This document shows, piece after piece, positions 15,415 through 30,180 of a stretch of DNA of 64,000 nucleotides (position 1 is the first letter of the stretch; the number at the start of each line of letters is the position of its first letter). The translations under genes were made by a program, and so were the position numbers. The notes under the pieces were generated by a model that saw nothing but the letters and a program-made list of their open reading frames with translations, did not search any database and had not been told where the DNA came from. Source of the DNA: a virus; IMG/VR virus record IMGVR_UViG_3300009082_000018, positions 1-64,000 of that record; one strand, 5' to 3'.

Positions 15415-17808
15415 ATGCCAGACATCTTTGGATCAGAGATCTATGATGTGCCGAGGCAGTCGTCTCGCTGCCAGATCTTGGTTTACTCCCACATCTCCAA
15501 AGGAACAGAAGACAAAACCTACTCCGGTGCTGTCAACTGTTCTCGGGATGTTATCGAATGCAACACAGCCAAGTCGATCAAGGCCGGTGGGGGAGCTGGG
15601 TTCACTCTTGTTCCTAGGCGAAACTATCTCAACTTCATCTTCCCCAATGACTACGTCTACATCTATTTCGATCCAGGTGATGGACGTGGCTTCATTTTGA
15701 CCTTCTTTGGATTTGTGGATCGAATTGAAAGGTCCATAGCAGTGTCAGGCAATGGTGAGTCTGTGACACGTTACAATGTCACGTGTTCTGATATCACCAA
15801 AGCTTTTGACAAGACTAACGTCTACTTCAATCCGCACATTGTAGATCGCGGAGATTTCGCCTCTCAATTTTTTGCGGGTACGAAGAACATGGGCGGATCG
15901 GCTCTGCGCACCAAAGGGCTCTCATGCTACGGTACTCCGGCCGACGTGGTCATGAGCCTAGCCCAGCGTCTCATGGGCTTCGGTGCTCAATTTGCTGTTC
16001 CCAAATCACATCCTACGGTGGGTGCCCTTGTTGATGCGAGCCGCAAGGTTCGATGGAAGAACCTGCTCAAGGTTCTGGCTTCCGACTTCCAAGATCTAGA
16101 ATCACCTGAGGTGCTTGCCGACCTCAAGGCCACAGTGAACTCTGAAATGGCCCAAGTGATAGAAAGATCAATATCGGAACAAACGAGCCCATTGGCTCCT
16201 CAAGTTTCGTTCATCAAAGGCCTAGTTAGCGGTGCGATCAGTCTGTCAACAGATGTCTCCCTGGGCCAGCAGCCGCCACTTTCGTCAGCAGCATTCCAAG
16301 CAGTTCGATCTGGTTTAGCTGCCAAATATGACAGGGTAAATGATCCGCTCACTAGCTCGGCCATTGAGGAAGGAAACACCATCTTTCTTGGTGCCAAGCA
16401 GATCAGTCTTCTGGACTTGATCAATTTTGGATTTATGGAGACCGAAGCCATCAGCGGGGCCATTCTGGCAGCACAGATCTGGCAATCTCAGGGTTCTCTC
16501 TGGTCGATCATGAATTCGTGGTCCAATGACTTGGTCAACGAGCTGTTTCTTGATCTGCGCCCTGTTGGAGCTAACGACAGTTTCGATCTTCGAGAAGGAG
16601 CCTACAGTCGGAATCCGGACTATCTGCAGGGAAACACAGGCGGTGGTGTGCAGTTCGTCAATGCCATCGTGATGAGGGAGTACCCATTCTCGACTGTTGA
16701 AGCCGTTGTCCCAGCAATGTCTGTCAAGGTTCTAGGCAGTGCCCTTGGCGTGGTTCCGCTTGGTGGATTTGGAGACAGCGGTATCTGGTCTAAGGATCGA
16801 AACAAAGCAGGACGTAAGGTATCCAACATACAGTCGTTGAATCCGTTCACGCGTGTTGAGAAGCCTAGTGTCAAAGGCGTAAAGCACCTCGACGTAGTTA
16901 AGATCAGTGTCAATGACATCATCCAAGAAAAAGTTGGACGTACCGACGCCGACACTGTGAATCTGATCGAGGTCTACGCAGACATGGGGATTGGAGAGAT
17001 GGGCAAGTACATGGACAATGATGTCCAGCCTGTCAGCAATCCGATCTCAATCATGCGCGATGGTCTTCGAGTACGCACGTATACGTCGAAGTTCGCTCGT
17101 TGGCCTGCCGAGAAAATGGGTGACGCCGGGCTGGACAACCCCGGAGCACGCTATCAGACCATTCGTTGGGCCCTCCTCCTTGACCACTGGTACCAACACA
17201 ACAAGGAGTACTTGAACGGGACCATCACCACGAGGGCCTTTCCAGAGATCAGGGTTGGATACCGACTAGACATCGTGGAACGAGCTGAATCCTACTACGT
17301 CGAGGGAGTTAGCCATCAGTGGTCCTACAGTGATAAGGGATCGATGCTGGTTAGCAACTTCACAGTTAGTCGTGGACAACGCAACGACCCATTCCCTGTG
17401 TACGTGCTACCGGCGTTGACGGGTTTCGGTGGGTTGAATAACAGAAATGATGAGAGCCGATTGGCTCAATGCTTCCGACAACGAAATCCAGCGGCAGTGG
17501 CCAGCGCGTCTCTGCTATTCGGAGACACAGACGTGCTGTCGGATCAGTTCTTGGAAAACTTTACTGACATGAAGATCTCTGCTAACAAGTGGTCCTCGAA
17601 CAAGAAGGGATACCTGGCCGCAGGGGCAATTCCGTATTCGTCCAAGGAGTACCTAGACGAAGCATGGGAACAGGTTGGTGCCACCGTCGAGGAACTGAAG
17701 AAGCTCGCCAAGGAAAAAGTGATCGATCCTGGAATGAAGGCACTGAAGTCTCTGTTTGGGTCAGGCGGCCCTACAGGTCCAACCGGATCAGGTACCAGCA
17801 ATGGATGA
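15415..17808 (+). CDS. Baseplate hub protein (gp27/gpD-like)
   Basis: The 797-residue protein follows the tape measure gene and precedes the spike gene, which is the hub position. The N-terminal part (FTLVPRRNYLNFIFPNDYVYIYFD, then FFGFVDRIERSIAVSGNGESVTRYNVTCSDITKAFDK) has the pattern of hub beta barrels: a coordinate-like short strand repeat followed by a statement of domain 'F.G.V....' and 'C.D'. The C-terminal part before residue 700 has YYVEGVSHQWSYSDKGSMLVSNFTVSRGQ, typical of a gpD-like last barrel. The tail is Gly/Thr-rich. The length is well above T4 gp27, so extra domains sit in the middle. Confidence 0.7.
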   Translation: MPDIFGSEIYDVPRQSSRCQILVYSHISKGTEDKTYSGAVNCSRDVIECNTAKSIKAGGGAGFTLVPRRNYLNFIFPNDYVYIYFDPGDGRGFILTFFGFVDRIERSIAVSGNGESVTRYNVTCSDITKAFDKTNVYFNPHIVDRGDFASQFFAGTKNMGGSALRTKGLSCYGTPADVVMSLAQRLMGFGAQFAVPKSHPTVGALVDASRKVRWKNLLKVLASDFQDLESPEVLADLKATVNSEMAQVIERSISEQTSPLAPQVSFIKGLVSGAISLSTDVSLGQQPPLSSAAFQAVRSGLAAKYDRVNDPLTSSAIEEGNTIFLGAKQISLLDLINFGFMETEAISGAILAAQIWQSQGSLWSIMNSWSNDLVNELFLDLRPVGANDSFDLREGAYSRNPDYLQGNTGGGVQFVNAIVMREYPFSTVEAVVPAMSVKVLGSALGVVPLGGFGDSGIWSKDRNKAGRKVSNIQSLNPFTRVEKPSVKGVKHLDVVKISVNDIIQEKVGRTDADTVNLIEVYADMGIGEMGKYMDNDVQPVSNPISIMRDGLRVRTYTSKFARWPAEKMGDAGLDNPGARYQTIRWALLLDHWYQHNKEYLNGTITTRAFPEIRVGYRLDIVERAESYYVEGVSHQWSYSDKGSMLVSNFTVSRGQRNDPFPVYVLPALTGFGGLNNRNDESRLAQCFRQRNPAAVASASLLFGDTDVLSDQFLENFTDMKISANKWSSNKKGYLAAGAIPYSSKEYLDEAWEQVGATVEELKKLAKEKVIDPGMKALKSLFGSGGPTGPTGSGTSNG

Positions 17809-19270
17809 TGTCAAAGAACTGGACGGTTCCGTAGTCGCGTCGTCTCAGCACATCATAGACGACTGGATAACGGATCGAAGAATGATGCCTTTGCTTGGTA
17901 TCATTCTGGACGTACATACTGCTGATCACAAAAACAACTTCTCAGCGCAACAGACGGCTGATCTTCGCGGTGTTCGTCACGAATGCACTATCCTGGCCAC
18001 CGACTACCTGGGCAAGCAGCCAGACATTCTCATCCCACACGTGATCATCACCCCTGCTAGACATTCAGGGATCGACAACTTCGACGAAGACCTGCCTCGT
18101 GGTTGTTCCAAGATGGTCGACGGATCAGTCTACGACACAGGCCTCAAGAACATCGACTACGCCAAACTCGATGGTGAGTGGTGCATGGTCGGTTTCGTTG
18201 GAGGAGCCTTCGAGTGCCCGTTCATCTTGTGCTGGTGGCCACACCCAGCCAATCGCTACGACCTTGCGACCAGTGGCTCTGGGTACAAGGGCAAAGCACT
18301 GGTACAGTACGATCCAAAGAAGGACAGATCCAGATTCCTGCGTCGGATCAATGGTACCTACTTTGCAATCAACAAACTTGGTAGCGTCTACTTGGACACG
18401 ACCGAGTCCAACTCCCAAGTCACTATCAAAGACGCGAAGGTCAAGAGAGAGCTGGTATCCAAGGGCGGTCACCTCCAGTTGGATATCGAGAAGAGTGCCC
18501 AGCTGGAGATCAATTTCAACGAAAAGGAGCACAAGGGTCCTAGGCTTGGCGCCGGCAGTACGAAGTCCGCTCCTGTCACTGATGTTGACCTTCCACACCC
18601 AGATCAACCCGTCACGGGTAGTCCGAAAGCCCGGTCTACCAAGCGTGGGTACCGACGGCAAAAGCAGTGGGAGACCTTTGAGAAGACTTCTAGATACGAT
18701 CTCTTTTGCGAAAACACAGAGGCTGAGGGTGACTCAGACAAGGGCAAGAAGGGGGAGGCCCTGCTCAAGGCTGAGGATACCATCTCAATCACGGTAGCCA
18801 AGGGAACTGACACAGGCACCATGATCAACATCGCAAAGGGCAAGATTCAGCTCTGGAGCGATGATGGAACTCAGATCAATGTACTTAATGACGAGGTGCA
18901 GCTCGTTACCAAAGGGGGTGGGTCTGTAGTTGTTAAAGGACAGGTCGTCACAGTAAATGGCCTGGTGAATGTTACCGGACCATTGTCTGTTGGTGGTGTT
19001 GGGGTTCCGACAATCTTGGGCACTCCGTTCCTGGCAGATCTTGGAGCGGACTACCTGGCAAAAGAGCTGGCATGCGCCACCACGACGCTGGCCCAGTGGA
19101 AAGCCCTGGCTGTAGCCAGCACAGGCCCGCTCGTGCCTCTCAAGGTGGCCTTTGAAGCAATGGCCACGGCCTGGGAGCTGTACAAAAACTCCATCCAGGC
19201 CTACATGACCAAGGCAATTCTACCACCGGCAGCCAACACATACCTGGCGAAGAACACGACTACCACATGA
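17801..19270 (+). CDS. Baseplate central spike protein (gp5/gpV-like)
   Basis: The ATG at 17801, inside the overlap with the hub stop, is chosen; the frame is open a little further upstream without a start signal. Of 489 residues, the first 200 form an OB-fold-like part, and from about residue 330 there is a repetitive strand series (EDTISITVAKGTDTGTMIN, IQLWSDDGTQINVLNDEV, GGGSVVVKGQVVTVNG) that reads as the triple beta-helix of a membrane-piercing spike. A helical C-terminal tail of about 80 residues is unusual for this family. No lysozyme domain is present, unlike T4 gp5. Confidence 0.78.
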   Translation: MDDVKELDGSVVASSQHIIDDWITDRRMMPLLGIILDVHTADHKNNFSAQQTADLRGVRHECTILATDYLGKQPDILIPHVIITPARHSGIDNFDEDLPRGCSKMVDGSVYDTGLKNIDYAKLDGEWCMVGFVGGAFECPFILCWWPHPANRYDLATSGSGYKGKALVQYDPKKDRSRFLRRINGTYFAINKLGSVYLDTTESNSQVTIKDAKVKRELVSKGGHLQLDIEKSAQLEINFNEKEHKGPRLGAGSTKSAPVTDVDLPHPDQPVTGSPKARSTKRGYRRQKQWETFEKTSRYDLFCENTEAEGDSDKGKKGEALLKAEDTISITVAKGTDTGTMINIAKGKIQLWSDDGTQINVLNDEVQLVTKGGGSVVVKGQVVTVNGLVNVTGPLSVGGVGVPTILGTPFLADLGADYLAKELACATTTLAQWKALAVASTGPLVPLKVAFEAMATAWELYKNSIQAYMTKAILPPAANTYLAKNTTTT

Positions 19271-19662
19271 TCTGCCCGCTTTTCCCACCGCTTCCTATTC
19301 TCTCGCTGAACATCCCAGCGATACCGTCGATCCCTTCGTTGCCTACTCTTCCTATGATCCCTATTCCAACGTTGCCGTCGATCAACCTAGAGATCCCACC
19401 GATCCCGTTGCCTCCGATTCCTGTTCTCTCGCTGAACATTCCAGTGATCCCATCGATCCCTGCGTTGCCCACGCTTCCAACAATTCCGATCCCGACACTC
19501 CCGTCGATCAATCTAGAGATACCACCGATCCCACTGCCGCCGATCCCAATATTGGCAATCAACATTCCAGTGATCCCATCGATCCCTGCGTTGCCCACGT
19601 TACCCACGCTGCCGGACTTGTCATTGACGTTCCCGTGTCCGACCGTGGAGGAGAAGCTGTAG
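19267..19662 (+). CDS. Proline-isoleucine repeat protein next to spike
   Basis: The whole 131-residue protein is a chain of (I/L)P units such as IPSIPALPTLP and PINLEIPPIPLPPIP arranged in three long repeats of about 42 residues. Proline at every second or third residue would enforce an extended polyproline or beta-like rod. The only cysteines are residue 3 and one near the end (TFPCPT), which could bracket the rod. It overlaps the spike stop as ATGA and is followed at once by the gp25-type gene, so it is probably a baseplate or spike part. I know no named family. Confidence 0.7.
   Translation: MICPLFPPLPILSLNIPAIPSIPSLPTLPMIPIPTLPSINLEIPPIPLPPIPVLSLNIPVIPSIPALPTLPTIPIPTLPSINLEIPPIPLPPIPILAINIPVIPSIPALPTLPTLPDLSLTFPCPTVEEKL
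19307..19616 (+). repeat. Tandem in-gene repeat, three copies of about 126 bp
   Basis: The proline-isoleucine gene is built of three imperfect direct repeats, each starting near CTGAACAT(C/T)CCAG or ATCAACATTCCAGTG and containing a copy of GATCCC(A/T)(T/G)CGTTGCC-like and CCGTCGATCAA-like words. The DNA identity between repeat 2 and repeat 3 is high, suggesting recent unequal exchange, while repeat 1 has drifted more. Repeat number may vary between related phages. Confidence 0.7.
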
Positions 19663-21639
19663 ATGGCTGACACCAAGGCTCTTGTCCTAAGAACATCTAC
19701 TCCAGCGGCCACTGTAGAGCGCCGGTTCTGGGCTACAGCAACCAGTGGCAAGATCCTTGGTTTGAGCTATTCCGGAAGCTCTGGTGTAGTCCTGTCCAGT
19801 GCCTACTCGATCTACCTTCTTGATCTGGCCACGAACTCGATCATGAATGTCCCTGGGTTGGACCCAGCTGGTAGGACGAATGAGGCGTTGTATCAGTTTC
19901 CTATGGCTCCTCAGCAGTACGAATGCACAGAGCCAGCCTCTACGGTGATCACTCCTACTCAGGAGGGAGGGAAGTTCGTCGAGAGTCAAGGAAGTCTATT
20001 CAAGGACATTAGGATCGGAGGTACGGTAGGGTTTCGTCCCAATCCAGCGTCTACAGAATTGATCCCGGGTCTTGGTAAGGCTACGGGAGTGCAGTTGACA
20101 ATGCCGGGTGCCCTGCAGCAGTTGTTCAATGATGAGAGAGGGTTGTCCCCGGATGAGGCCACCGGCTTCGACGACATCATCTTCTTGCGCAACATATTCA
20201 GGGCCTATTGGGATTTCAAACAGAATCCAGACACGGCCCGAAGGGTTGCCCTGGTGTGGATCTACGCCAAGGAGTCCGAGTCGTGGGTCGTGGAACCGAT
20301 GTCGTTTGTCACAAGTAGGGAGTCCAGCAAGCCATTGAGCTGGACCTACCAGATTCAACTGAGGACTCTCTATCCTTTGGGCTACACGTTTGTAGTAGTT
20401 GACGATGCTCTCGGATTCTTTGGAGGTCTTTCCAAGTTCCTCGGAGCCGTTCAGACACTGACAAAGGCGATCAAGGATATCGGTAAGTTCTTCAACCAGC
20501 TGTCCAGCCTAGTCAACTACATCGTTCGTCTTCCGTTCAAGCTTGTCAACGACATCATCGGAGGTGCCCTTTCTGTGATGTCGTCATTGTCTGATCTGAA
20601 AAACAGCTTGGATTTCTCGAATCTGCCAAAGCAGACCTGGGAGAAATGGGGATCAGACCTCAGAGAGGCCTACTATATCATGACCGGCGTGTCGAACACG
20701 TCGACGCCAACGGCCCCTCCGACAAGCAGCATCAACCCAGCTCCGAAAGACGCACCCGCGAATAATCGTGGTGCGACTGGGCAAGAAGGTAGAGACGGGG
20801 AAGCAGCTAAGGTGATCCGTGATGGTCTTCGTACTTTCAACTCCCTGATCACCAGCAGTTTGCTATGGGCGCAGAGCAAACAGGTACAGGTCAAGGACTA
20901 CTCATCGGCCTATCTGGATGAATTTGGTGAGCCTCCTCTCACCGCCGGTTCTCCTCTCAATGTTTCTAACATCACGGTACCGGAATCGGCCAAGCAAGTG
21001 ATCATTGAGGGAGGCGAAGACCTGCGAGCGATTGCAAAGAGGCTTCTCGGAAACGAAGCCTTGTGGAAGCTTCTGGCGATCCTAAATAATCTCAAGTCTC
21101 CCTACATTGCTGCTGTGAGGTCTCCTGGCGTGTTGACGTATGGAGATCCTATTCTGATCCCGAAATCTGCTGATGGAATTGAGGCACAGAGTGGAGTTGC
21201 ATCCACGACCAATACTGATGCAGCTTTAGAGGCTCTAGATCCGGTCATGAAGCGATACGGGCGAGACATTCGTCTGATATCCGTGAGCGATGATGGGGAA
21301 GCAGATCTAGGTGTCAACCAGCGCGGTGATTTCGATACGGTAGACGGAGTGGACAATGTCCACCAAGCAGTGATGATCAAGTTTTCAACAGAGCAGGGTG
21401 AACTGGCGACCCATCCCACGTTTGGGGCAAAGTACGCCATCGGTACGAAGTTCCCTTCGTTGGCCAAGTTGCAAGAATTCTCTCTCAATGCACAGAGGAC
21501 GCTGCGCCAGGATCCGCGTGTTGAAGAGATCACTGAATTTGGGATCAAAATCTACGCAGACCAGGTCCAACTCAAGGCGAAAGCTAGGCTACGTGGGGCG
21601 GATGTGCAGCTCCCCGTGTCTTTTCTGGTGAGGAGATAG
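19663..21639 (+). CDS. Baseplate protein: LysM-like plus gp25-like wedge domain fusion
   Basis: The 658-residue protein ends, from about residue 540, in a gp25-like wedge domain (FDTVDGVDNVHQAVMIKFST, then KFPSLAKLQEFSLNAQRTLRQDPRVEEI). In front of it, near residues 440-510, is a LysM-type segment (QVIIEGGEDLRAIAKRLLGNEALWKLLAILNNL and GDPILIPK) like those of gpX/gp53. The N-terminal 280 residues look like a hub or tail-tube initiator, followed by a Thr/Pro-rich linker. In many phages these are separate genes, so this is a multi-domain fusion that would join hub and wedge. The ATG follows the previous stop directly. Confidence 0.75.
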   Translation: MADTKALVLRTSTPAATVERRFWATATSGKILGLSYSGSSGVVLSSAYSIYLLDLATNSIMNVPGLDPAGRTNEALYQFPMAPQQYECTEPASTVITPTQEGGKFVESQGSLFKDIRIGGTVGFRPNPASTELIPGLGKATGVQLTMPGALQQLFNDERGLSPDEATGFDDIIFLRNIFRAYWDFKQNPDTARRVALVWIYAKESESWVVEPMSFVTSRESSKPLSWTYQIQLRTLYPLGYTFVVVDDALGFFGGLSKFLGAVQTLTKAIKDIGKFFNQLSSLVNYIVRLPFKLVNDIIGGALSVMSSLSDLKNSLDFSNLPKQTWEKWGSDLREAYYIMTGVSNTSTPTAPPTSSINPAPKDAPANNRGATGQEGRDGEAAKVIRDGLRTFNSLITSSLLWAQSKQVQVKDYSSAYLDEFGEPPLTAGSPLNVSNITVPESAKQVIIEGGEDLRAIAKRLLGNEALWKLLAILNNLKSPYIAAVRSPGVLTYGDPILIPKSADGIEAQSGVASTTNTDAALEALDPVMKRYGRDIRLISVSDDGEADLGVNQRGDFDTVDGVDNVHQAVMIKFSTEQGELATHPTFGAKYAIGTKFPSLAKLQEFSLNAQRTLRQDPRVEEITEFGIKIYADQVQLKAKARLRGADVQLPVSFLVRR

Positions 21640-21641
21640 TT

Positions 21642-23465
21642 ATGGCATTCCAGCCTCGCAACTTCGAGCAGATCCTCACGGACATGATTGCCCACATGAG
21701 GGCAAACACCACGGTGACGGATTACACTGTTGGTTCTGTGGCCAGGACTCTTCTCGAGGCGTGTGCCCTGGAAGACGATGAGCAGTACTACCAGATGGTC
21801 ATGCTGCTCGACGCTTTCAGGATTGCCACCTCGTCTGGAACCGATCTAGACGAGCGGGCGGCCGACTACAACCTCACTCGATTGGCTGCGTCATCATCCA
21901 GTGGTGAGGTAACAGTCCAAGATGGATCGTTGGTCACTAGCACATTGAAGTTTGATGTGACTTCTGGATCACCAAAGACCGTCTCCCTTGTAGACTCCAG
22001 CGACTTCCCGACAACGCCTCCCAACTTCACTGTTCGTATTGGGGAAGGAACCCCTCAAGTAGAGGATTGCACAGTCACGCTGCACAACCCTACTCTTGGA
22101 ACCTTCTCAGTATCTACTCTGCTAAACAACCATGAGGCAGGCGAGAGAATATCCAAACTAGGAGCTGGAGTCAGGACGATCAATTCTGGTCTTCAGGTGC
22201 AGGTACCAGCAAAGGGTAACAGCCCCGCTGTCACTTTTATCTCTACACTCAAGGTGACCCTGGCTGATGGAAACTACGAATCGTCTCCAATATCGATCCG
22301 AAGCAACAGCACTGGCAAGACCACGAATGTTTCTCCTACGCAGATCTCCCAGTTCCAGGGGTCAGCCCCATTCACTGGAGCTACTGTTACCAATAAGAAG
22401 TCGACATCAGGTGGCCGAGACATCGAAACAGACGATGAGTTCAGGGCTCGCCTGTTGCGCCGAATCAGAGAGTTATCTCGAGGCACTGTCAATGCTATCG
22501 AATCGGCCGTCATCGGAACCACGGACGCCACCACAGGTCGCAGCATTGTTACTTCCAAGATGCGGGAGGACTTCTCTGATCCGTTCAACAATGTCATCTA
22601 CGTCGACGATGGGACTGGGTTCACCCCGACAAAGACCAACATGGCCCAAACGTCCCTCAGTGCCCTCCATCTAGCTGGCGTTACGACGTTGAATGTCAGC
22701 TCAGTCAGCAATTTCCCAGACAGTGGATACGTGCTGATCGACGCCAATGGGGCCTCGGCTGAATACGTCAAGTACACCAGTCTCGGTCCTGGAAACGTGA
22801 TCAATCTGGCGTCATCAACGGCGAATGGCCATGCCAGCGGGCAGACGGTTCGACTGGTTGATGTGGTTGGCGTAGCCGAGGACGCTCAGAACTTCTTCCA
22901 GCTTCCAAATTGGCCCGTGCTTGAGAACACATTGGAGCTGTACGACAACGATTCAGGATCATTTGTTCGAAGAACAGAGAAGACTGAGTTCTACGTCAAT
23001 CGGACCAACGGGGAGATCCAGTACCTGGGGACAGGCCTGAACGCCGGCACGGTGGTTCTGTCCCATTGCTCCTTCTACACTGGTCTTATGGCACAGGTCC
23101 AGAAGGTGATCACGGGTGATCCAAACAACCGATCCAACTACCCCGGCGTGGTAGCCGGCGGTATTATGGTCCACGTTGGAACACCGATCATTCGTCGGAT
23201 TTCGGTTACTGTCACGATCACGGCCAAGAACGGGTACGACGAGATTCAGCTGCGGGGAGAGGTTCAGCGAGACGTCGAATCCTACATCGATGGTCTACTG
23301 ATCGGGGAGAATGTGTATCGTTCCAAGATCATCGAGAAAGCAGTGAGAATCACAGGTGTGGAGAACGCCGTAGTGACGTACCCTACGGAAGACCTTGTGA
23401 TCTTGGAAAATGAATTGCCTACTCCCTACGACATCAACGGCAACAGCCTGGTGACGGTGATCTAA
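21642..23465 (+). CDS. Baseplate wedge protein gpJ/gp6-like
   Basis: The 607-residue protein has the clear gpJ opening: a helical N-terminus (FEQILTDMIAHMRANTTVTDYTVGSVARTLLEACALEDDEQYYQMVMLLDAFRIATSSGTDLDERAADYNL) and, after a beta insertion, the conserved segment RDIETDDEFRARLLRRIRELSRGTVNAIESAV. The C-terminal region contains the last gpJ helix-strand part. Two GASSI-like beta insertions, near residues 70-230 and 330-380, make it larger than P2 gpJ. These proteins form the wedge ring that holds the baseplate in the extended state. Confidence 0.85.
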   Translation: MAFQPRNFEQILTDMIAHMRANTTVTDYTVGSVARTLLEACALEDDEQYYQMVMLLDAFRIATSSGTDLDERAADYNLTRLAASSSSGEVTVQDGSLVTSTLKFDVTSGSPKTVSLVDSSDFPTTPPNFTVRIGEGTPQVEDCTVTLHNPTLGTFSVSTLLNNHEAGERISKLGAGVRTINSGLQVQVPAKGNSPAVTFISTLKVTLADGNYESSPISIRSNSTGKTTNVSPTQISQFQGSAPFTGATVTNKKSTSGGRDIETDDEFRARLLRRIRELSRGTVNAIESAVIGTTDATTGRSIVTSKMREDFSDPFNNVIYVDDGTGFTPTKTNMAQTSLSALHLAGVTTLNVSSVSNFPDSGYVLIDANGASAEYVKYTSLGPGNVINLASSTANGHASGQTVRLVDVVGVAEDAQNFFQLPNWPVLENTLELYDNDSGSFVRRTEKTEFYVNRTNGEIQYLGTGLNAGTVVLSHCSFYTGLMAQVQKVITGDPNNRSNYPGVVAGGIMVHVGTPIIRRISVTVTITAKNGYDEIQLRGEVQRDVESYIDGLLIGENVYRSKIIEKAVRITGVENAVVTYPTEDLVILENELPTPYDINGNSLVTVI

Positions 23466-26607: not shown

Positions 26608-29600
26608 ATGCCGAAGGCACTCTTGACCCACGCAAATGAGCGGATTGACAAGGTCGATCTGGACTTCGCAGCGCTATTTGGTCGGAATACCACCAACATG
26701 GCGATGAGGAAACTGATCCTAGATCAACAAGACCGACTCGTCAGTGGGTTCCGTGTGGAGCTTCCCGATCAGACAAGCAACCCGGGTCGAGTGGTCATTC
26801 ACGGAGGCTATGGTCTGGACCGAGATGGTAATCTGATCTTCAATGAAGCCCAGATTGACATCACCAGGGACATCATCCTGGAAGGATCCAACACGACCTT
26901 CTATCTCGAGGTTGAATTCTTCGAGCCCATCTCTGACGTTGATGCCAGGGCCTTCTGGGATCCAACGGTTGACCAGGGCACAGATCCATCCGGCGACCCA
27001 AAGCCTTACGGCCAGGAGTTCTTCGCCAACGTGGCAGCACGGAAGACGCCAGACTGGCGCATCGTGCAGCCCGTTAGCACGACCGGATTCCAGAGAGACG
27101 CTGGCGGCACAGTGTCCTCTACCAGGATTCCTCTGCTCAAGGTAGCAACAGACGCGCTCAATGAGATCACCTTGGCTGTCAACGTTGGCCTGGCTGTTGG
27201 CCCCGCCAGCACCATTCTTCTTGAACGGATTTCGTCTACTGTGCTGAGAGTGCAAGAGGCGTCGTTTTTCTTCGCTGGCCATCTTCTGACCGTTGACTAC
27301 GGTGGGGCGGGAGCTGAGACGGCCACCATCGCTACCGTTGATCCAGAAACCGGTGTTGTCACTTTGACAGGTGCTCTGATCGGAACTCCGGCGCCTGGAG
27401 CGATCATCCGAGGTGACACTGGGGCTACCCAGTTCATCGAAGAGTCCAAGGTTGGCCGCTACCGCCGGCCTTCTGAGACCAATGTCATCGACTATCGAGA
27501 TCGGATGTTTCAGGGCGACGAGGTCCACGGCGACATTCTCAATCGTGGTCATGACTCGATCACGGACAAAACAGACCTGAATCTTCGATCTTTGAAAGAT
27601 TATGTCGACTATCTGTCGGCGCAGATCGAGGACATGAAGTGGGGTTCCCACAATCCATGGGATGCTGGGCTTGCCGCAACACGCGTTCCTCCTGGTCTCC
27701 AGACTGCTTTGCCTACAGTTCCAAGGCACTACCACAAGTCTGGTGGGATCATGGGTGCCCGCACAGCAGCAATCACTGTGGGCGATGGAGTGAACTCGTG
27801 GGGTGACTTCAATGGAAACTTGGAGACCGCTCTCCAGGCTGCTCACGATGCTCTTCCAGCATCCGGTGGGCGGATCTTCCTGAAGCGTGGGGTCTACGGT
27901 CTTGCGAATGACTTCGACTGGACTAGCACTGGATCAGTAGTGCTAGAGGGAGAAGAGGGAACCCAGATCGTCCTTGGTGGTGGAAAGATCCATATCGCAA
28001 CCACAGGTTCTGTGACTCTCAAGAATCTGGCTATCTACGGATTCACAACCTACATTGGAATTTTGGTGGATACTGCGAATCCTTCTGGGTTCGTGATGCA
28101 AGATGTGTTTTGCCAGGATGCCGCATTCAATTTGAATGCTGTGCTGCCTGGGACCTCGACGTTTCGTAGGGTGTGGTTTTGGGGCACTATCGGTGCTATG
28201 GCCTCGATCCCGTTGTTCAAGATCACGGGAGCGAATGGTACGATCAGTGGTACCTTCACGGAATGTGATTTCAACCACCTTACGATGATCTCGTTGTCCT
28301 GTAGTCTCATCGACTGCATCAATGGTGCTCCAACAGCAGGTTTGTCAGCGGTCAACTTTCAGGACTGTAGCTTCGCATCTGCGTTGCTGAACGCTGAGAG
28401 CATCCACCTCGGTAACTCTGGAAACATCATCCACTTCGATCGATGTTTGTTCTGGTCGTGGTTGACAGTGGTCCACGTCCGCATGACAGGTGGAACGAAC
28501 GTTAAGTTCACCAACTGTGTAGGTATGGACAACTTTGCTGGCTTCCTGGCAGCAGAGAATGTCGATCATCTCGAAGTGAGTGGCTACCTGAACAACAACG
28601 CTGTGGCCTTCCCAGTGATCGATCTGTATGACTGCAGTGGAGTCAAGATCGTCGACGGTGATTTTGCTGTATCGTCTGGCTCGTCATTGGGAAATGCTTG
28701 CATCAAGATCACCAGTCAGAATGAGAGCCTTGAAGACATCTTGATCGAGAGCAACTCCATGACAGGGCCTAGTGGAGCCAACCAGGCCCTAGGCATTCTG
28801 TTCGTGCTCAATTCAGCTGCAGCACGAACAATCGGCAATGTGAAGATCATCGACAACGACTTCACCAATGTCGAGGCAGGGGTGTACTTCGCCAATCCTC
28901 TCTCCGCTGCAGTTGGTATCTACCGGAACGTCATAATCACTGGAAACGAGTTTCGTGGTAGCACAACAGGCGTAGCAGCAGACAGCCTGAAGGTTGGTCT
29001 TCTCTTTGGAGATCGATCTCAACGGCAGACGGTGACCATCAGTGACAACATCTTTGACGGCGTCAATCCGGATACCACGACGCTTGCTGGAGGCATAGCC
29101 AATAGATCAGCAATCTGCATCTTGGGGACCAGCAATTACCAGTTCCGGATCAGTGGAAACCAGATCTACAAGGTGGGTGCCACTGGGTTCGAGATTGCGG
29201 ACACATGCGGAATCTACGCTACTCAGCTTGGTCTGAGCACCATTGTCGACAATGTCATCCAGACAGTGATTGGAGTCGCAGGCTTCGGAATCCGCATTGT
29301 TACAGACATCTCGAATTCCAAGATCAGTGACAACGTCATCTTTGGATGCACCTCCTCGGGTGGCTCCGGCCTCCAGAGCTACGGGTGGGGAATCCAAGCA
29401 GAGTCCGCTCTCAATGTCACTATTACTGGAAATGAGATCGGAGCCTGCTACGGGTCTGGTATATTTGGAATTGCGATCGGAGGCTCTTCGTCCACAGGAA
29501 GCTGGGTCAACGTTTCCATTACAGGAAACACAGCAACAGGAACGTTCGCTGCCCAGCTACGAATGGTGAACCTAAGTGCTCAGACCGTTTCTGGCATCAC

Positions 29601-30180
29601 AATCAGTTCCAATACTGGGTACCTTACAGAGATCGGAATTGCGATCATTTCTCTTCCTGGATCGTTGTCTTACAACAACATTCAGATCACCGAGAATTCA
29701 ATCATCGGTGATGCTGGCGTTTGGGTGAATTTGACCTTTGCCACTACCGACTACAGGAATGTTTCAGTCAATGGAAACTCACTCCAAACGTACACCTATG
29801 AGTCAATCGTAGTCACCAAGGTCAATGGGCTGGTGATTAGCAAGAACAACGCGCATTCGACAGCGGCCAAACACAATATCTACTGCCAAGACTGCACCAA
29901 GTCCACGATCACTGGAAACTACCTGCACACCATTGATGGTGCCACCATCTACAATGTCCATCTTGGATCTGCTGGCAATGTTGTCTACCTGGTTGGTAAC
30001 AATGTCTGTGACCGAAGTGGTGGCATTGTGGGCCAGTCGATCTTCACATCAGGTTCTGGTAACAGCCTAGTTCCTACTGGTGCGAATGGGCAGGGTCTGA
30101 TCTGTGATAACCTAATCAAAACTGCGTGTGTAGCAAACCCTGGGGACATGATACACGATACGAATACTTTGTTCCCATAG
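26608..30180 (+). CDS. Tailspike/tail fibre with right-handed beta-helix
   Basis: The 1190-residue protein has a virion-binding N-terminal part of about 300 residues (DKVDLDFAALFGRNTTNMAMRKLILDQQDRLVSGFRVEL), a short coiled segment near 330, and from about 385 to the end a right-handed parallel beta-helix of pectate-lyase type. The helix is marked by repeats such as TISDNIFDGVN, RISGNQIYKVG, KISDNVIFG, TITGNEIGAC and SITGNTATGTF (N at turn positions). Such spikes bind or degrade surface polysaccharide. No catalytic pair can be assigned. AGGAG precedes the ATG. It is the main receptor-binding candidate. Confidence 0.8.
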   Translation: MPKALLTHANERIDKVDLDFAALFGRNTTNMAMRKLILDQQDRLVSGFRVELPDQTSNPGRVVIHGGYGLDRDGNLIFNEAQIDITRDIILEGSNTTFYLEVEFFEPISDVDARAFWDPTVDQGTDPSGDPKPYGQEFFANVAARKTPDWRIVQPVSTTGFQRDAGGTVSSTRIPLLKVATDALNEITLAVNVGLAVGPASTILLERISSTVLRVQEASFFFAGHLLTVDYGGAGAETATIATVDPETGVVTLTGALIGTPAPGAIIRGDTGATQFIEESKVGRYRRPSETNVIDYRDRMFQGDEVHGDILNRGHDSITDKTDLNLRSLKDYVDYLSAQIEDMKWGSHNPWDAGLAATRVPPGLQTALPTVPRHYHKSGGIMGARTAAITVGDGVNSWGDFNGNLETALQAAHDALPASGGRIFLKRGVYGLANDFDWTSTGSVVLEGEEGTQIVLGGGKIHIATTGSVTLKNLAIYGFTTYIGILVDTANPSGFVMQDVFCQDAAFNLNAVLPGTSTFRRVWFWGTIGAMASIPLFKITGANGTISGTFTECDFNHLTMISLSCSLIDCINGAPTAGLSAVNFQDCSFASALLNAESIHLGNSGNIIHFDRCLFWSWLTVVHVRMTGGTNVKFTNCVGMDNFAGFLAAENVDHLEVSGYLNNNAVAFPVIDLYDCSGVKIVDGDFAVSSGSSLGNACIKITSQNESLEDILIESNSMTGPSGANQALGILFVLNSAAARTIGNVKIIDNDFTNVEAGVYFANPLSAAVGIYRNVIITGNEFRGSTTGVAADSLKVGLLFGDRSQRQTVTISDNIFDGVNPDTTTLAGGIANRSAICILGTSNYQFRISGNQIYKVGATGFEIADTCGIYATQLGLSTIVDNVIQTVIGVAGFGIRIVTDISNSKISDNVIFGCTSSGGSGLQSYGWGIQAESALNVTITGNEIGACYGSGIFGIAIGGSSSTGSWVNVSITGNTATGTFAAQLRMVNLSAQTVSGITISSNTGYLTEIGIAIISLPGSLSYNNIQITENSIIGDAGVWVNLTFATTDYRNVSVNGNSLQTYTYESIVVTKVNGLVISKNNAHSTAAKHNIYCQDCTKSTITGNYLHTIDGATIYNVHLGSAGNVVYLVGNNVCDRSGGIVGQSIFTSGSGNSLVPTGANGQGLICDNLIKTACVANPGDMIHDTNTLFP

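Follow-up and report, generated by a model that had tools for sequence, protein, structure and literature searches.

Known spike tips and the slot they occupy

Of all parts of a contractile machine, the spike tip reaches the target envelope first. P2 gpV and Mu gp45 represent the HxH type of metal-tipped spike, and in spikes of the phi92 gp138 type (3pqh) the tip is part of the spike chain itself. PAAR proteins (PF05488) are encoded by a separate small gene located directly after the spike gene and before the gp25 gene (e.g., SP15_052 of Bacillus phage SP-15), and they carry three internal motifs per chain, which match the trimeric spike. This usual occupant of the slot is structural and has a zinc site of three histidines and one cysteine near the vertex (PMC8651086). 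Many contractile clusters have had no tip candidate, and a Streptomyces lividans cluster is reported to be without one (PMC10286715).

The gene order hub, PF04717 spike, PAAR, gp25, and Baseplate_J is found in SP-15 and the order hub, PF04717 spike, PAAR, and Baseplate_J in Listeria phage LIS04, and Thermus phage Cumys encodes a PAAR "tip protein" after a spike-type gene, one gene ahead of the gp25 region. Among control loci with related spikes, Pfam confirmed PAAR as the gene after the spike in five (L214, L230, L232, L237, and L239).

A proline-rich gene in the PAAR slot of a virus record

The DNA analyzed here is a stretch of 64,000 nucleotides (positions 1 to 64,000 of IMG/VR record IMGVR_UViG_3300009082_000018, hereafter the window). 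It contains a baseplate region in which a small gene for a proline-rich (P-rich) protein lies between a spike-like gene and a gp25-like gene. The features of the region are as follows (all on the plus strand).

15415-17808, plus strand: hub-like tail protein, upstream of the spike gene (phrog_1015, E=1.1e-12)
17801-19270, plus strand: spike-like protein, 489 aa from this ATG (spike-profile match, weak PDB matches)
19267-19270, plus strand: ATGA start/stop overlap of the spike and P-rich genes, also present in related contigs L005 and L006
19267-19662, plus strand: gene of the (I/L)P-repeat protein, a proposed spike-tip component; ATG start, 131 aa (ORF translation and homologues)
19273-19275, plus strand: codon of the N-terminal Cys3, conserved in the P-rich family
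19300-19425, plus strand: repeat unit 1, residues 12-53, 42 aa (lag-42 self-identity 0.67)
19426-19551, plus strand: repeat unit 2, residues 54-95, 42 aa, with 4 differences from unit 1
19552-19659, plus strand: repeat unit 3, partial, residues 96-131, ending F-P-C-P-T-V-E-E-K-L
19636-19638, plus strand: codon of the C-terminal Cys124, in a conserved C-P motif
19663-21639, plus strand: tail-tube-initiator-like and gp25/sheath-initiator-like protein, 658 aa (profile matches)
21642-23465, plus strand: Baseplate_J wedge protein (PF04865, E=2.3e-16)

The open reading frame described in the earlier note was recovered with its overlap of the spike stop codon, and its own TAG stop is directly followed by the ATG of the next baseplate gene at 19663. 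The ATGA overlap might couple the translation of the spike and P-rich genes. Three related contigs carry the P-rich gene in the same place. An antisense frame of 163 aa, rich in Gly and Ile, is open across the gene (19260-19751, minus strand), as it is in the relatives.

The spike-like protein has no Pfam match. Its C-terminus consists of a beta-helix-type stretch followed by a helical-looking extension, the HxH apex is missing, and its alignment with the spike profile of other family loci (hhalign 95.2%, E 2.7e-8) covers the C-terminal part only. The product of the gene at 19663-21639 seems to be joined from a PF23980 tail-tube-initiator part, a middle part that matches LysM-containing families, and a PF10934 gp25/sheath-initiator part; the counterparts in phage SPO1 are encoded separately (gp13.1 and gp14.1). 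Further downstream, a 1190-aa frame (26608-30180) resembles by eye a right-handed beta-helix tail spike or fibre.

The P-rich protein consists of 31% proline with 33 [I/L/V/F/M]-Pro steps, contains no Gly, His, Trp, or Tyr, and has 4.6% charged residues and a GRAVY value of +0.93. When the sequence is shifted by 42 residues against itself, 67% of positions are identical, as compared with a maximum of 31% over all lags in 100 residue shuffles. Of the three near-identical 42-residue units noted previously, the first two differ at 4 of 42 positions (counted by eye) and the third is partial, and the first 11 residues (MICPLFPPLPI) resemble by eye the end of a preceding unit. DNA identity at a lag of 126 nucleotides is only 68%, which rules out a fresh DNA duplication as the source of the repeats. 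AlphaFold2 monomer models from two alignments (pTM 0.16 and 0.12, mean pLDDT 72 and 58) are extended and contain no secondary structure, so that the rod proposed earlier comes down to an extended chain predicted with low global confidence.

A conserved family recovered without context

The P-rich protein of the window has no match to a Pfam family (E<=0.1) or to a PHROG, and searches for the family as a whole in Pfam, NCBIfam, and the PDB (phmmer, hmmsearch) and with tblastn on phages returned nothing usable. PDB matches were rejected as leucine-rich-repeat look-alikes by composition. One member (L126) weakly matches phrog_31248, whose function is not annotated (E=8.9e-4), and other members match it more weakly; the similarity may reflect composition. 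Standard annotation overlooks the family, which falls to low-complexity filters and is represented by no profile.

A signature was derived from the common features of related contigs found by direct searches: an M-x(1-3)-C start, (I/L)P-rich repeats, and a C-P-(L/I/F/A)-(D/E) end. The C-terminal signature alone, written as a degenerate DNA pattern and used without context, was scanned against viral contigs and against bacterial and archaeal genomes, where it matched 41 and 19 stretches, respectively. About ten to twelve of these are chance matches by inspection, and those removed by hand are L144, L146, L150, L153, L154, L158, L159, L162, L192, and L201. A scan restricted to the N-terminal signature added further members, again ending in C-P-L/I, four of them distinct from those already found and each with three repeats. 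The pattern of each end thus recovers the other end, and the two signatures predict each other. Overall, approximately 58 distinct complete members were obtained from phage contigs and 11 bacterial genomes, and a protein type that the earlier note had considered rare turned up by the dozen in context-free scans. The rule M-x-x-C ... C-P-L-D after a spike gene eases the finding of further members.

Trp, Tyr, and His together account for one residue among 5,933 in the family, and the median charged fraction is 0.054. The protein of the window fits the family signature, with 121 residues (2.88 of its 42-residue periods) between Cys3 and Cys124, and departs from it at the C-terminus, which reads C-P-T-V-E-E-K-L instead of C-P-L-D. 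In several members the repeats resemble each other more closely as protein than as DNA (identities of 0.74 vs 0.66 in L163, 0.75 vs 0.61 in L186), which argues for selection on the protein. A unit-by-unit comparison across lineages gives 56-59% identity from composition alone and so carries no signal on repeat homogenization. Nine of the 11 bacterial genomes carry one copy per locus (search at E<=1e-10).

Position relative to spike and gp25 genes

Among the context-free viral matches with enough flanking DNA, a spike gene lies within 1.5 kb upstream in 27 out of 30 cases, mostly <50 bases away, and a gp25-type gene lies downstream in 29 out of 31. The spike and gp25 profiles used for these counts were built from family loci, and Pfam serves as an independent check: PF04717 was found in 29 of 35 spikes, and of 30 downstream genes 22 have PF04965 and four others PF10934. 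Compared with the PDB, the family spike profile matches VgrG, T4 gp5, Afp8, Pvc8, and phi92 gp138 (E=0.0018 for the last). In most of the bacterial genomes, sheath genes are located ~10-11 kb upstream of the P-rich gene on the same contig, and the classical eCIS marker Pvc16_N (PF14065) was not found near the gene in these loci; the bacterial loci are thus contractile loci, which may be of the prophage, tailocin, or CIS kind. The P-rich gene is real and belongs to a conserved family with a conserved place between the spike and gp25 genes. A small P-rich-type frame is absent from this slot in SPO1, P-SSM2, HTVC008M, BRock, and further named phages that were located by their baseplate genes.

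Relation to PAAR proteins and HxH spikes

The earlier note saw no PAAR protein in the window and suggested that the P-rich protein could be an extended tip, a tether, or a spike sheath in its stead. This reading is partly supported: PF05488 is absent from the entire record of 109,593 bases, and the slot of this conserved, spike-tied gene is filled by PAAR in several phages and contractile loci. Among loci of Chloroflexota and Actinomycetota with related spikes, the gene after the spike encodes PAAR in at least seven and the P-rich protein in two, and never are both present. PAAR was found in none of the 43 virus records that carry the P-rich gene and in one of the 11 bacterial genomes, where it is part of a 1520-aa frame on a different contig.

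Like PAAR, the P-rich protein is encoded by a small gene that immediately follows the spike gene and precedes gp25, and in its three-repeat form it has a three-part chain that would match a trimeric spike; its one- and two-repeat forms differ from PAAR in this respect. In contrast to PAAR, it lacks histidine and Gly-rich turns, has a Pro/Ile/Leu composition, and carries two end cysteines. The PAAR HMM matched neither the window protein (Pfam, E<=0.1) nor ten relatives (E<=10), and the residues of a PAAR-type zinc site are missing, as the window protein has no histidine and the family has two cysteines only. The P-rich protein resembles PAAR by position and three-part build, but its sequence places it outside the PAAR family.

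The absence of PAAR is partly explained by the type of spike. Most spikes beside a P-rich gene (about 40) bear an HxH apex motif near the C-terminus, followed by a Pro-rich tail, whereas PAAR-type spikes end bluntly. HxH spikes make their own metal-bound tip and may therefore need no cap, and since so many of the neighbouring spikes are of this kind, the absence of PAAR argues only weakly for a tip role of the P-rich protein. Two HxH spikes are accompanied by neither a P-rich gene nor PAAR (L216 and L218), which indicates that the gene is not obligatory there. The spike of the window lineage lacks HxH, making the P-rich protein the only tip candidate seen in that lineage. Its arrangement also differs from that of phi92 gp138, in which the tip belongs to the spike chain, in that the P-rich protein is encoded by a separate neighbouring gene.

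A further likeness is to collagen-like proteins (PF01391), with which the family shares a period-three proline pattern (one member, L059, has a sub-threshold collagen match of 15.7 bits). However, glycine does not occur at every third residue (the window protein has none) and bulky Ile and Leu stand in its place. The snow flea antifreeze type is a known polyproline-helix protein.

Repeat number and cysteines

Three repeats are present in about 50 of the 58 distinct members, two in five, one in three, and more than three in none. The three-repeat members (44 distinct aligned sequences and the four from the N-terminal scan) have periods of 32-45 residues and span at least 13 spike lineages. Almost all members contain exactly two cysteines, which bracket a whole number of repeats, at a distance of 2.6-3.1 periods in three-repeat and 1.9-2.0 periods in two-repeat members. 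With three repeats nearly constant and a cysteine at each chain end, a closed, pseudo-threefold shape seems likelier than a plain rod.

The five two-repeat members (L012, L145, L155, L161, and L194) are exceptions to any strict threefold rule. Assembly collapse as their origin was mostly rejected, given exact DNA repeats of only 12-28 nt; L155, with an exact repeat of 58 nt, may still be such a case. The one-repeat form, a 52-aa protein with a single repeat between its cysteines, occurs in one phage lineage (L167, L179, and L181/L198; phage contigs of 34-168 kb). The spike tail of the one-repeat loci (HQH.CAAPGAP..PGPTPPPMLY.ELSEVVSIG) is nearly identical in L199 and L091, which are three-repeat relatives; this would be expected if one long chain is equivalent to three short ones. 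Selection seems to hold the repeat count and not the length, as docking on a threefold axis would require. The one- and three-repeat forms offer a natural experiment in the matching of a single chain to a threefold axis.

Proposed role and alternative explanations

The preferred reading, to which we assign a probability of about 0.55, is that the P-rich protein is a structural part of the central spike complex, that is, a spike-tip component. The protein would dock coaxially at, or just under, the distal end of the trimeric spike, with the three repeats of a chain proposed to match the three chains of the spike. Each spike chain would be touched by one repeat, and the resulting pseudo-threefold body would be PAAR-like but of another sequence type; either one three-repeat chain or three one-repeat chains would cap or extend the spike. 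The end cysteines, which are separated by a whole number of repeats, could meet and close the ring via a disulfide or a shared metal, and the stiff, nearly uncharged Pro/Ile/Leu body would enter the host envelope first when the sheath contracts. We infer that the protein is present in the particle, sits on the spike, has a pseudo-threefold fold with paired cysteines, and acts at the membrane. For contractile clusters that had no tip candidate, the family would supply one that can be tested. More tentatively, and with rather more doubt than belief, it may constitute another class of spike tip next to the PAAR cones and the HxH metal tips, namely a cysteine-closed pseudo-threefold needle of Pro, Ile, and Leu built from one or three chains, in unrelated phages and in contractile loci of Lysobacter, Sphingomonas, Planobispora, Chloroflexota, and others.

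The extended Pro-rich chain might instead run along the three beta-helix faces of the spike, as a collar or wrap of the shaft or as a linker between spike, hub, and gp25. The gene order would be the same, the AlphaFold2 chain is extended (with low confidence), many spikes have an HxH apex with a Pro-rich tail so that the tip is already occupied, and the repeat number can drop to two. We nevertheless regard a collar or linker as unlikely, because a shaft would select for length, whereas the near-fixed three repeats at variable length favour docking on the threefold axis.

A small protein whose start codon overlaps the stop codon of the spike gene could also be an assembly factor that aids the folding or register of the spike trimer and then departs from the virion. 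This appears improbable, as such an extreme composition with no predicted globular fold would be unusual for a chaperone and the usual occupant of the slot, PAAR, is structural (PMC8651086).

There is still less reason to expect a cargo or membrane-active protein that is delivered with the spike and is not structural. A hydrophobic, nearly uncharged protein (median charged fraction 0.054) kept as a single copy per locus in 9 of 11 bacterial genomes could be of this kind, but it also occurs in phages, whose task is DNA delivery, profile searches revealed no recognizable toxin domain, and the gene is tied to spike and gp25 and not to a variable effector slot.

That the gene is a spurious low-complexity frame, or that the antisense frame open here and in the relatives is the true gene, is barely credible given the conserved ends, the tight start/stop overlaps, the same position in unrelated contigs, and, in several members, a protein sequence better conserved than the DNA, and the open antisense frame can probably be attributed to Pro, Ile, and most Leu codons rarely giving stops in reverse.

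Earlier descriptions and related genes

No account of the P-rich family was found in the full-text literature on proline-rich or polyproline spike proteins or on PAAR-less spikes, a search scope with subscription papers and preprints mostly outside it, so that an earlier description may exist.

A second small protein, helical-looking and Ala-rich, is often encoded next to the P-rich gene, either before or after it (L059, reverse complement, 1409-1924; L157, 7602-7844; L171, 1773-2252). The helical-looking C-terminal extension of the window spike (19000-19267) may be a fused counterpart of this protein.

Three Pro-rich genes in a similar slot lack the cysteine signature and were excluded from the member counts (L099, 8209-8637; L122, 100-486; L010, 5932-6399), one of them with Lys-rich interruptions; they perhaps represent the same idea in other phage lineages. 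In the isolated Xanthomonas phage PhiXhv-16 (229 kb), the gene after the spike (L249, 4192-5124) encodes a 310-aa protein (XYR93568.1) with IP-rich stretches (IPTIEIPIPEIPIPVIPPLPSIPDLPPL) between helical parts, possibly a looser relative of the P-rich family in a cultivable phage.
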